A stretch of 64,000 nt of DNA from Sulfurisphaera javensis. Its GTDB lineage: Archaea > Thermoproteota > Thermoprotei_A > Sulfolobales > Sulfolobaceae. The position numbers and the translations under genes are program-made. Shown piece after piece: positions 27,259-32,132 of the stretch (position 1 is the first letter of the stretch; each line of letters opens with the position of its first letter). The notes below the pieces were generated by a model. It saw only the letters and a program-made list of their open reading frames with translations. It did not search any database and was not told the DNA's origin. Location of the stretch: contig NZ_AP031322.1 of assembly GCF_041154675.1 (NCBI RefSeq), positions 806,001-870,000 on the forward strand, written 5' to 3'.

Positions 27259-27270
27259 TATTTATTTAAA
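27259..27270 (+). promoter_or_regulatory. Predicted TATA box of the peptide/radical SAM operon
   Basis: ATTTATTTAAA about 25 bases before ATG 27292 predicts a transcript beginning at or next to the peptide start codon, so the tiny ORF is the first gene of the message. Confidence 0.5.
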
Positions 27271-27291: not shown

Positions 27292-27366
27292 ATGAAAGCC
27301 GTAAAAGTAGTAAAAATAGAAAGAAAAATGGGTAGATGTAACTACTCCCCATCTTGGGGGCAGTAA
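27292..27366 (+). CDS. Candidate RiPP precursor peptide (24 residues)
   Basis: ATG 27292 to TAA 27366 encodes 24 residues: a basic leader [14 protein letters not shown] and a short C-terminal part [10 protein letters not shown] with one Cys, one Tyr and one Trp. The stop is one base before the start of a radical SAM/SPASM enzyme, so translation is coupled. This is the standard layout of a ribosomally made, post-translationally modified peptide: tiny precursor, then its maturase. Cys, Tyr, Trp, Ser and Pro in the last ten residues are plausible modification sites. The reading is from gene order and composition; I do not recognise the peptide family. Confidence 0.6.
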
Positions 27367-27367
27367 A

Positions 27368-28576
27368 ATGCAAAAAGTCAAGTTATCTAAATTCAATGTT
27401 TTTCTTTACGATTATGGAATTATTTTTAATACATTAACAGGTTATGCAATAAAAGTTGATAAGGGGACTATGGAAAAAATTCAAAAAGGTGAAATACCGG
27501 AAGATTTAAAGGAAATTATTGAAGAAGGTTTTGCTGATCAAGATTTCGATCCAGATAGACTTATTGCAAATAAGAAGTATCTTGAACCTACTTTAGTATT
27601 AACATATGATTGTAATTTTGATTGCGTTTATTGTTTTCAAAAGGCATTTAGAAATAAAAGCAGGGTAAGTGAAACTGTAGTTAAAGGATTTGTTAATTAT
27701 ATTTTGAGGAAAAGAAAACCGACTAGAGTGACTTACTTTGGAGGTGAACCATTACTCGAGTTAAGAAGGATTGAAGAAATCTCTAATATTCTAAGAAAAG
27801 AGATAGATTATTCATTTAGCGTTGTAACAAATGGTTCTTTATTAACTCCTTATGTTCTTGATAAGCTAAATTCAGTGGGTTTAACACATGTTCAAATAAC
27901 TTTAGATGGTCCTAGAGAAATTCATGATAAAAGAAGGTATTTTGTGAATGGTAAAGGCTCTTTTGATATTATATTGAAAAATCTAAAGTATGCACAAGAT
28001 CATACTAAGGTTGTTCTAAGAATAAATATTGATGTAAAGAATATGGAAGAAATTGAAAGACTATTGAAGACTCTTAAGGATGAGGGAATAACAAATGTTA
28101 GATTAGATCCTCATTTAGTTCATGAGAATGTGTTTAGGCATGAGTATTGGCATAATACTTTATCTAAAGATAGTGAGGGTGAAATATTAGTTAAATTCTG
28201 GGAAATTGCTAAAGATTATGGATTTGAGATTCCACAAGAGGTATTCAGATTAGGAATATGTGTTGCTCACATAGATGAAGATATTGTTGTAGATCCCTTT
28301 GGAAATATTTATCCATGTTGGGCATTTACTGGTAATCCTCTTTATATAAAAGGAAAATTAAAAGAAGATGGGAGTATAGAATGGGTAAGAAAGGAATTAT
28401 TAGGAGAAAGAGCTAAATATGTGTGGAAAGGTAAGTGTGATAATTGTCCATTTTTGCCAATGTGTGTTGGTGGTTGTAGATTCTTTGCAGTTCTTGATAA
28501 AGGAAAATTTGATGAAATAGATTGTCAAAAGAGGAATTATGAGGAAATTGTAAAGTTAATAAAATATTTTATATAA
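27368..28576 (+). CDS. Radical SAM/SPASM peptide maturase
   Basis: 402 residues. The N-terminal 70 or so ([22 protein letters not shown]) look like the peptide-recognition region found in such maturases. The radical SAM cluster motif is C82-x3-C86-x2-C89 ([11 protein letters not shown]), followed by YFGGEPLLE and VVTNGSLL. The C-terminus is a SPASM domain binding extra iron-sulphur clusters: [21 protein letters not shown], then [14 protein letters not shown] and a final [13 protein letters not shown] enzymes of this form modify short peptides, for example by thioether or carbon-carbon crosslinks. The gene follows the 24-residue peptide gene by one base. No transporter or protease is next to it. 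Confidence 0.9.
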
Positions 28577-28751: not shown

Positions 28752-28824
28752 AAACAGGACTGTCCGGGGAAACGGACAGGATGATCGGATAAACCGGACT
28801 GTCCGGGGAAACGGACAGGATGAT
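28752..28824 (+). ncRNA. Two tandem GC-rich hairpins upstream of a DUF3800 gene
   Basis: Two copies of a 34-base unit (28752-28785 and 28791-28824) differ at one position and repeat with a 39-base period. Each contains the stem CTGTCCG / CGGACAG (7 bp) closing a short GGGAAA loop, followed by GATGAT. The GC content stands out sharply in this AT-rich region. A TATA box lies just before and the DUF3800 start is 45 bases after. Structured RNAs next to DUF3800 genes are known from published comparative RNA searches (the DUF3800 motifs), so a functional RNA is likely. Alternatives are a DNA operator pair or an attenuator. Confidence 0.6.
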
Positions 28825-28868: not shown

Positions 28869-29516
28869 GTGTTAGTTAGTGTTGATGAGTCTGGAAATCA
28901 GTCTACAAAGGATCCTTACCCTTTTGTAATAGGAATTGTAATCATTAGGGACGAGGAGAGGTATAAAAAGGACTATCATAATTTCTTTGGTGATAGAATT
29001 TTCAAGTATTCGGAAGATAAGCCGAAAATAAGTAACGTAGAGGGAAACGTTAAAGGAGAATTCATTTCCTTTCTATCTGCACGTATATTCTCTATAGCGA
29101 TAATCGTGGAAAAATTTGAAGATATAAAAAGTTTAGCAGTTGATATTTATGGCAAGCTTGTAGCTTTTCATTTGAGGAAAATTGATTTGAAAGGGAAAGT
29201 GAAGGTATTGTATGATAGAAATCCTCTTTTAAAGAAAGACGAGAAACTATATATTCAAAATAACTTTCATTATTGGTTAAAATACATAAAAGGTATATGG
29301 ATCAGTGTTAGCTTTGAGGGTAAAGATAAAGATATAACGATCTTTCCTGCTGATTATGTAGCTGGACTAACTAGAGATTACGAATTATGCATGGAAAGAG
29401 AGATTAAAAATGAAAAATATTGCGGACTTATTAGGGAATGGATAGACTTACTCTCTCCTTGTATATATTTTTACACAACTAGTGAAATAAGAGAGATTGT
29501 TAGAGAGCTGAATTAA
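28869..29516 (+). CDS. DUF3800 family protein, RNase H-like fold
   Basis: 215 residues. The N-terminal VSVDESGN holds the conserved Asp of DUF3800; KVLYDRN and the C-terminal PADYVAGL (FPADYVAGLTRDYE) give the further acidic residues of the putative RNase H-like active site. The start is GTG 28869, immediately ahead of the conserved strand, so little can be missing. Tandem hairpins on the same transcript precede the gene. DUF3800 proteins are widespread in defence islands and near mobile elements; their activity is not firmly established. Function here is probably tied to the hairpin RNA. Confidence 0.8.
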   Translation: MLVSVDESGNQSTKDPYPFVIGIVIIRDEERYKKDYHNFFGDRIFKYSEDKPKISNVEGNVKGEFISFLSARIFSIAIIVEKFEDIKSLAVDIYGKLVAFHLRKIDLKGKVKVLYDRNPLLKKDEKLYIQNNFHYWLKYIKGIWISVSFEGKDKDITIFPADYVAGLTRDYELCMEREIKNEKYCGLIREWIDLLSPCIYFYTTSEIREIVRELN

Positions 29517-29924: not shown

Positions 29925-32132
29925 TTAAATTATTTGACTTATAGGAATTGCTATTACATATCCCCATATTGAATCATCAATTAGAGTATTACCCACAATT
30001 ACGGGCTGATCTTTTCCAAGATCAGTTCCAGTATAATAATTTGCTACTATCTGTCCATTTTCAGCGTTTAATACTGTTATGTTAACGAAGTTAGGGACAA
30101 TAATGTAACCATCATAATATACTGGTTGATCAGCTAATGAGGCCTTAGGTAATTTAGGTGATACCCATATTAACTTGCCAGTAGTTAAGTTAAATGCAGC
30201 TACTGTTCTGTTAATATGTGAAGGTACATAAATTACTCCATTGTATACTAAGGGACTAAATCCATTATTATCATCTCCAGGGTGACCATAACCTGTAATG
30301 TTCTCGATATAGATTATATTCCCGTCAGTTACATTTACAACCATTAATACTTGTCTAACATAGATTTGATTTAAGTAAACTCCTTTATATATTGGATATC
30401 CCATGAAACTATCGACTAAATATTCTCCATATATTGCTGGAACTGCATCACCTACTGATGAACCGTATGCGAAGGGAACTTTTAATAACCAAGCTAATGA
30501 ACCATTATTTGCATATAAAGCAACTATTGCTGACATATTTACTGGATAACCCGGAGAGAATGCTGCAATAACTAATGCGTAGTTCTTACCTTGATATAAA
30601 TCTAAACTTGCCATATTTGCACTTCCATCATAAGAATAATTCCAAACTTTTTGTCCAGTTGTTGCATTTAATGCATAAATGTTTCCATCTCCGTCATCAA
30701 AGATAACTAAACCATTATAAATTACTGGAGTCGGCATTGCTTCAGATTTAGTTAAGTATAGCCATAATGGGACTCCATCAGTAGCGTTTATAGCCAATAA
30801 ACCATTTAATCCAGTATATAAACCTCTATGTCCTCCACCATAGGCATTTAATTTCCCTTGAGTATATGTAAATGTAGCCCCTCCTAATCCAACGTAAACT
30901 ATTCCATTATATACAACTGGCTCAACCATGATTACAGCTGCAGGTGTTGTTAATTCCCATATTAGTTTACCGGTTTGAGAATTTATCGCATAAAGTTGAC
31001 CCATGTCCGAAGCAACGTACACTACTCCATTAGCATATGAAGGACCTACTGCATCTCCAGCTGCTTGTTCATAACCTGCACCATATTCTGAGCCTAATTC
31101 TTTCATATCATTTTCCCATGCAGTAATATTACCAAATTGAAATGCATTTTGTTGTTGAAAAATCCAATTAGCATTTAATGATCCAGAAAATACTGGGTTT
31201 CTATTTGGAGAATTTGCGTACATTAACCAATTTGAAGGACCAGTAATCAAAACGGATAAGTTTCCGGGGTAATAATATGTAGTAAATCCAAAACCATGTA
31301 GATAAGTAGTAAACACTTCTTCAGAAGGAGTAGAAGAAAAAGAGGATGTAGAACTTGGGACCCCCATAGACATGTTTAATACTTTCCAGAACTGGTTAAT
31401 TGCTTGCATTAGTTGTGGATTGCTTTGTGTAATGAGCTCTTCCATTACTTGTTCTGGTGTTAGTTTAGCAATTGCTGATGGTGAATACGACGGACCAATT
31501 AAGATCCACGTTCCATTAGGCCCAGTTACTATCATCATTGTTACTGGATGTGGTGGCACCTTATATTGGCCTATTAAAGGAACATTATACATCACTGCTA
31601 TATTATAAACCCATTGTGGAGCATATTCCTTTAATTCTTGTAATCCGGCATATAATGCAATAGTTGGGCTTAAAGAGTAGTTTAGTGGTTTTGGTGTTGG
31701 CAAGACTGTTTCGTTTAGATATTCGTTATAAAGATATATGTAATCAAATATGACTGGAGAGTTCTTTGGTATTGACACTCCTTCAAATAATAATCCAGGG
31801 ACATTGGGTGGTGTTCTAAACGGATCAGATGTATGGTAAACATAGGTAAAGTTTATTCCGTAATGCGATAATACATAGTATATTAACCATGAGTCCATTG
31901 CTGCTACATGGCATCCAATCCAACCAGAAAGGAATACTTCAGTTTTGTTTGGCGGTGCAAAGTCCATATTTGTTACTTTAGTCCATACTCCAACCTTAAC
32001 ATCAGATAGTGGCACCCATCTTGAATTATTTGCTGGTTGTTGACTATTAGAAGGAGAATATGTTAAATACGTTGTTGATGTAGCTATACTGATAGCTATT
32101 ATTACTAGAAGGGGTATGAGAAATTTTTTCAT
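29925..32132 (-). CDS. Secreted PQQ-type beta-propeller protein
   Basis: 735 residues. An N-terminal signal or anchor (KKFLIPLLVIIAISIATS) is followed by a domain of about 300 residues typical of Sulfolobales (VGVWTKVTNMDFAPPNKTEVFLSGWIGCHVAAMDSW...). From about residue 345 the sequence is an eight-bladed-type propeller with repeats such as GVVYVASDMGQLYAINSQTGKLIWEL, GLNGLLAINATDG and NIYALNATTGQKVWNYSYDG. These are PQQ-enzyme-like repeats. I see no clear set of PQQ/Ca ligands, so it may be a non-enzymatic binding protein or an electron-transfer protein of the pseudoperiplasm. Many N-glycosylation sequons fit extracellular location. It stands alone. Confidence 0.75.
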   Translation of the reverse strand: MKKFLIPLLVIIAISIATSTTYLTYSPSNSQQPANNSRWVPLSDVKVGVWTKVTNMDFAPPNKTEVFLSGWIGCHVAAMDSWLIYYVLSHYGINFTYVYHTSDPFRTPPNVPGLLFEGVSIPKNSPVIFDYIYLYNEYLNETVLPTPKPLNYSLSPTIALYAGLQELKEYAPQWVYNIAVMYNVPLIGQYKVPPHPVTMMIVTGPNGTWILIGPSYSPSAIAKLTPEQVMEELITQSNPQLMQAINQFWKVLNMSMGVPSSTSSFSSTPSEEVFTTYLHGFGFTTYYYPGNLSVLITGPSNWLMYANSPNRNPVFSGSLNANWIFQQQNAFQFGNITAWENDMKELGSEYGAGYEQAAGDAVGPSYANGVVYVASDMGQLYAINSQTGKLIWELTTPAAVIMVEPVVYNGIVYVGLGGATFTYTQGKLNAYGGGHRGLYTGLNGLLAINATDGVPLWLYLTKSEAMPTPVIYNGLVIFDDGDGNIYALNATTGQKVWNYSYDGSANMASLDLYQGKNYALVIAAFSPGYPVNMSAIVALYANNGSLAWLLKVPFAYGSSVGDAVPAIYGEYLVDSFMGYPIYKGVYLNQIYVRQVLMVVNVTDGNIIYIENITGYGHPGDDNNGFSPLVYNGVIYVPSHINRTVAAFNLTTGKLIWVSPKLPKASLADQPVYYDGYIIVPNFVNITVLNAENGQIVANYYTGTDLGKDQPVIVGNTLIDDSIWGYVIAIPISQII

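Follow-up and report, generated by a model that had tools for sequence, protein, structure and literature searches.

Positions 27292–28576 of the window, by which we mean the whole 64,000-nucleotide stretch of Sulfurisphaera javensis DNA that was analysed, hold two forward-strand genes in close succession. The first (27292..27366) is a putative RiPP precursor peptide ORF of 24 codons plus a TAA stop. A single base (27367) separates this stop from the ATG of the second, a 402-aa ORF (27368..28576) assigned as a radical SAM/SPASM peptide maturase from its motifs, HMM matches and an AlphaFold2 model with a CteB-like fold. A TATA-box-like element, TTTATTTAAA, lies at 27261..27270 on the same strand, its centre about 26 nt upstream of the peptide ATG. 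TATA spacing of about this size is expected for leaderless transcription in archaea, Sulfolobales included, and the position of TTTATTTAAA suits a leaderless transcript that would begin at the peptide start codon. Both the 24-codon ORF ending one base before the maturase gene and the TATA box preceding it had been pointed out in a preliminary description of this DNA, and both are present. Defining a peptide-before-gene layout as an ATG ORF of 18–60 codons that ends 0–15 nt before an ATG ORF of at least 150 codons, we found it at 2 of the 37 such longer ORFs in the window, with 27292–27366 as one of the two. As far as could be found, the peptide gene has no existing annotation; with only 24 codons, it is short enough for routine gene calling to miss.

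An orthologue search with the enzyme across 31 Sulfolobaceae genomes recovered orthologues of 58–78% identity in 17 of them, the window's own genome counted. The peptide lies 1–12 nt upstream of the enzyme gene in every one of the 15 loci with an intact enzyme and readable upstream DNA. Outside this set are G208, whose contig begins within the enzyme gene, and G015, whose copy is decayed: one deletion starts at the peptide's GRC and extends into the enzyme as far as roughly residue 293. Among the 31 genomes searched, the peptide was absent from the f1 genomes that lack the enzyme. The preliminary description had staked its reading on the peptide frame being kept where relatives keep the enzyme, and this is the pattern in all 15 intact loci. 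Matches to the peptide pattern in G011, G004 and other families of the order have neither the leader nor an adjacent enzyme, and were set aside as chance.

The 15 loci yield the peptide consensus K/R-V-V-x-I-E-R-K/R-x-G-R-C-[NG]-Y-S-P-S-W-G-[QED]-stop. Position-by-position conservation, together with a leader match to distant relatives, points to a leader of residues 1–13 (27292..27330; motif KVVKIERKM), and residues 14–24 (27331..27363) would form the core, with a single invariant Cys and Q, E or D at the C-terminus. The last ten residues had been proposed as the modified core; this nearly matches, although the block that is almost constant comprises the last 11, GRC[NG]YSPSWG[QED]. Within it, Cys16 is invariant, Asn17 is replaced by Gly in about half of the loci, and Trp22 and Gly23 are retained in all loci, as is the acidic or amide character of residue 24, making D/E/Q24 the sole constant acidic or amide acceptor candidate. 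The shortness of the precursor, earlier called striking, does have precedent, as PqqA is about as short as 24 aa.

Across 19 codons of the peptide frame, pN/pS was 0.215, falling to 0.168 when only the core was counted, while the two shifted frames gave 2.3 and 1.1. Ser21 is preserved even though its codon belongs to the TCN box in some loci and to the AGY box in others. The peptide frame is under codon-level purifying selection, and the joint conservation of peptide and enzyme is far beyond chance. In the enzyme tree, the GY-type loci, which come from g10 and three g5 genomes, fall into one clade with full support (100/100). The remaining g5 genome with the maturase, G202, differs from its genus-mates in both genes: its enzyme and its peptide are of the NY type. 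Peptide subtype tracks enzyme clade, not genus, and the peptide and enzyme behave as a single unit. By eye, a T/A-rich element stands about as far ahead of the peptide ATG in the NY-type relatives; no TATA-like element was seen at comparable spacing in the g10 (Metallosphaera-like) loci. A mobile-element or viral origin was considered and rejected, since viral contigs held no relative and plasmids only distant bacterial maturases (25–31% identity).

Exactly ten Cys are invariant in 14 close orthologues of the enzyme, three in the radical SAM motif and seven in the SPASM domain. The former, C82-C86-C89, make up a CX3CX2C motif for the radical SAM [4Fe-4S] cluster (27611..27634), and the latter, C298, C317, C357, C360, C366, C370 and C386, lie within 28259..28525; the C82-x3-C86-x2-C89 motif and intact SPASM cysteine set of the preliminary description are borne out in full. 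Its sequence motifs are those of an enzyme with one radical SAM cluster plus a pair of auxiliary Fe-S clusters. A confident AlphaFold2 model built on a 54-row alignment (pLDDT 93.6, pTM 0.91; pLDDT 66 from the 14 close sequences alone) comprises, from the N-terminus, an RRE-like domain, the radical SAM barrel and a SPASM domain with 7 Cys. Residues of about 8–68 (27389..27571) are modelled as three strands followed by three helices, with these elements spanning residues 10–67, and the N-terminus is thus predicted to match the strand and helix topology described for RREs (PMC6231123). An extra linker Cys before the SPASM domain, occupying one alignment column, occurs in many relatives (54% of the rows) and is absent from all 14 Sulfolobaceae enzymes. 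In CteB, the substrate Cys occupies the open cluster site (PMC6231123). As the Sulfolobaceae enzymes have no linker Cys, their Aux I cluster may have an open site, which would be compatible with a CteB-like substrate Cys ligand.

The enzyme scores below the cutoff of every curated NCBIfam model. The two best scores, for the geopeptide model TIGR04280 (221.5 bits, cutoff 400) and CefB NF038107 (220.8 bits, cutoff 600), cover nearly the whole protein, yet remain far under those cutoffs. They are followed by TIGR04463 (168 bits) and Clo7bot (146 bits), both below their curated cutoffs, PapB NF047865 (148 bits, cutoff 340), the SCIFF maturase TIGR03974 (95.7 bits, cutoff 425), DynA (93 bits, cutoff 450), YhhB (79 bits, cutoff 445) and the mycofactocin maturase TIGR03962 (70 bits, cutoff 265); PqqE is absent from the best 25 curated models. 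As no curated cutoff was reached, no chemistry can be transferred from any of these families, and the system is filed in no curated subfamily. CteB was the best PDB match both by sequence profile (5wgg, E 1.4e-27) and by Foldseek (5why, E 9.9e-19, TM 0.71), in the latter case followed by anSME, ChlB and SuiB. Membership of a family that acts on a protein or a sugar had been raised as an objection to a peptide substrate; the nearest families, at sub-cutoff scores, are instead the geopeptide, CefB, PapB and CteB peptide maturases. The anti-phage enzyme viperin was also considered, and shares just weak generic radical SAM similarity.

Like the Sulfolobaceae enzyme, CteB (thermocellin) and PapB (freyrasin) combine an RRE-like N-terminus with a radical SAM core and a SPASM domain, although CteB is only about 20% identical to it. 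Known ranthipeptide precursors are usually Cys-rich, and those of CteB and PapB have many Cys, whereas the Sulfolobaceae peptide has one; the SCIFF precursor likewise has six. The Cys-every-fifth pattern associated with CefB is also absent from the single-Cys Sulfolobaceae core.

Beyond the Sulfolobaceae, the orthologue search returned only distant relatives with different peptides: enzymes of about 31–33% identity in 4 of 398 genomes of the phylum, and assorted bacterial relatives at about 25–32%. Just upstream of the distant Thermoproteota enzymes (L172–L175, L193) are Cys-containing peptides of roughly 37–51 aa, such as MEIIPLREGSCTFDDCGVCDCFQSICNYCAPPKEPSTW (GTG start) and MKVIILEKGSKAWYRYTACNTVGCGQNCTPVGCGSFISPY (start inferred). 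The L172–L175 enzymes are about 31–33% identical to the Sulfolobaceae enzyme, and those of L172–L174 differ from it in having the linker Cys. The peptides of all five loci show the shared leader form [KRE]-hydrophobic-hydrophobic-x-[LI], whereas their cores are longer, mostly Cys-rich and without YSPSWG. A profile of the Sulfolobaceae leader outperformed shuffled sequences on these five distant archaeal peptides (Fisher P 2e-5), a statistic that depends on a choice of upstream peptides made partly by eye, and did not match five bacterial upstream peptides (P 0.30). Separately, L175 and L193, both Thermoproteota SPASM enzymes, have upstream peptides with a CGSFISP segment in common within the core, which may mark a further precursor family in archaea. 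Upstream of distant bacterial maturases at L099, L100, L102, L110, L112, L119 and L122, mostly from Spirochaetes and Ignavibacteria, are 31–39-aa peptides of the form MKSLIKKKPEGNKAVAQCCAKTSKVVAGCHD, which look like another uncharacterised family of Cys-peptide precursors.

Further downstream in the window, two tandem RNA hairpins (CTGTCCG-GGGAAA-CGGACAG-GATGAT; 28756–28824, forward strand; fold z -4.5) directly precede an ORF that is weakly DUF3800-like (28869–29516, forward strand). Of 13 Sulfolobaceae loci with the DUF3800-like gene, 12 have one to three such hairpins ahead of it. Their stems differ among three sequence types, one of which sits on the opposite strand, while a GGGAWA-type loop and a GATGAT tail recur. 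With up to 3 mismatches allowed, the first hairpin type occurs nowhere else in the 31 genomes. DUF3800-associated RNA motifs are present in Rfam (PMC11701678), and the hairpins match none of these; together with the DUF3800-like gene, they form a candidate RNA-protein pair. Beyond them, on the reverse strand, lies a 735-aa protein in which DUF929 is fused to a PQQ-like beta-propeller (29925–32132). This protein was considered as a partner of the peptide and maturase and discarded, as it is not conserved near the pair.

Taken together, we conclude that 27292–28576 is probably a two-gene RiPP operon that encodes a 24-aa precursor and its dedicated radical SAM/SPASM maturase. That a short peptide beside a SPASM maturase constitutes a RiPP layout was the central proposal of the preliminary description, and it gains support from the conservation of the arrangement in 15 of 15 loci and from the affinity of the enzyme to peptide maturases. 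Since the core is nearly unchanged and the peptide directly precedes the enzyme in at least 15 archaea, it is very probable that the Sulfolobaceae with the pair produce a small peptide that is chemically modified. In the mechanism that we propose, the leader KVVKIERK would dock as a strand on the RRE-like domain, as CteA does on CteB, and would thereby present the core at the C-terminus to the active site; both of these steps have good support. There, the 5'-deoxyadenosyl radical would abstract a side-chain hydrogen within the core and a ring would close. The ring could be formed by a ranthionine thioether from the sulfur of Cys16 to a non-alpha carbon of Asp/Glu/Gln24, enclosing C-x-Y-S-P-S-W-G-[DEQ], and the substrate Cys may in addition ligate the auxiliary cluster that seems to be without a fourth protein ligand.

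We favour the bond between Cys16 and residue 24 because the nearest maturases are of the thioether type, Cys16 is constant and position 24 is restricted to Asp, Glu and Gln. There is precedent for such acceptors: PapB links S-Cbeta to Asp and S-Cgamma to Glu, and CteB links S-Cgamma to Thr (PMC11002830). Counting against a thioether are the variation of the acceptor among Q, E and D and the single Cys of the peptide. By analogy with these enzymes, a ranthipeptide-like crosslink is a tentative assignment, in which our confidence falls slightly short of even.

The neighbourhood of the pair may bear on what follows modification. An MBL-fold hydrolase (PF00753) is the single recurrent neighbour of the maturase, found in nine genomes in three arrangements. 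In G016, G203 and G204, its gene is translationally coupled to that of the maturase, whose 3' end it overlaps or directly follows; in G202 it is divergent and just upstream; and in five g10 genomes it lies 1.3–2.0 kb upstream on the opposite strand. In the window's own genome, the MBL gene is unlinked to the maturase. The protein is encoded in 17 of 17 genomes with the maturase versus 6 of 14 others (hypergeometric P about 4e-4, with kinship ignored). In genomes without the maturase, the MBL gene is clustered with genes for a U32-like protein and two AhbC/AhbD-like radical SAM enzymes, and its link to the peptide is for this reason suggestive only. The MBL-fold protein may act downstream of the maturase. 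Counting against the RiPP reading, neither a peptidase nor a transporter accompanies the pair consistently. As a separate observation, a cluster comprising a U32 peptidase-like protein, an MBL-fold hydrolase and two AhbC/AhbD-like radical SAM/SPASM enzymes recurs in Sulfolobaceae (L065–L067, L071–L077, L176–L191). A small protein with a Cys motif (MCDY...) and without a Pfam match is often encoded nearby.

These neighbours would fit a cofactor route of the PQQ or mycofactocin kind, in which the Tyr- and Trp-bearing C-terminus would be modified and then excised by the MBL-fold hydrolase, perhaps with the U32-like protein. As it keeps the precursor-maturase layout, this route overlaps with our preferred explanation. 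It would account for the strictly conserved C-terminus and the association with the MBL gene, and PQQ (PqqA/PqqE) and mycofactocin are alike in having a very short precursor, a SPASM enzyme, a conserved C-terminal core and, in some genomes, an MBL-fold protein nearby. However, the core motifs of the PQQ and mycofactocin precursors differ from that of the Sulfolobaceae peptide, the enzyme falls outside both maturase families with a low score against the mycofactocin model, the MBL gene also accompanies the U32 and AhbC/AhbD-like genes where there is no maturase, and the PQQ-like propeller protein is not a conserved neighbour. On this balance, we regard the route as rather unlikely.

The main chemical rival to the thioether is a cyclophane that uses the same acceptor: the RiPP layout would be unchanged, but the crosslink would be a three-residue ring from Trp22 to the side chain of Gln/Glu/Asp24 (i, i+2), with Cys16 serving in recognition or cluster binding. 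The core terminates in W-G-[DEQ], an aromatic-x-polar triplet like those of triceptides, and the known 3-CyFE enzymes form a bond between Trp C6/C7 and the Cbeta of residue i+2, Asn and Asp included (PMC11002830). Nevertheless, the enzyme is not close to triceptide maturases, with scores for DynA and YhhB well below the 146–221 bits obtained for thioether-type and uncharacterised Cys-peptide maturases, and a cyclophane would leave the invariant Cys without a chemical role, so that we consider this chemistry distinctly unlikely. That the short ORF is instead a regulatory leader peptide, acting by nascent-chain arrest or translational coupling on an enzyme with another substrate, would fit its close spacing to the enzyme start in every locus, the SD-like GGTGA after the peptide stop in many loci and the conserved C-termini of arrest peptides, but is highly improbable, as the N-terminal half (KVVxIERK) is also conserved and is the half common to distant relatives, a common leader with a different core being the usual logic of precursor peptides rather than of a stalling peptide, and as the enzyme has a predicted RRE-like domain and relatives with short Cys-containing peptides at the equivalent position.

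Under the preferred reading of a precursor-maturase operon, the system is best described as a new family of precursor and maturase among radical-SAM RiPPs, a class known mainly from bacteria. In a full-text search of open-licence papers, we found no description of the peptide or of any Sulfolobales radical-SAM RiPP, in line with the earlier statement that no described peptide of this sequence was known. A 2025 survey of archaeal RiPPs predicted radical SAM clusters widely, with experiments limited to lanthipeptides (PMC12144867). The system is minimal, with two genes and an 11-residue core, and its hosts are heat- and acid-loving archaea. As these include cultured species, co-expression and gene deletion can address it directly.

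Since the core barely varies, its product is more likely to be a housekeeping compound, resembling a cofactor, chelator or signal, than a fast-evolving bacteriocin from an arms race, and its constancy suggests a physiological role over antibiosis. More specifically, the pair might make one near-invariant, lineage-specific compound of this kind, either a signal or a peptide-derived cofactor (redox or metal), for which the MBL-fold protein would provide the second step; we hold this proposal to be possible but somewhat unlikely. We know of no such lineage-specific housekeeping compound from Sulfolobaceae, and if the proposal is true, this would be the first.
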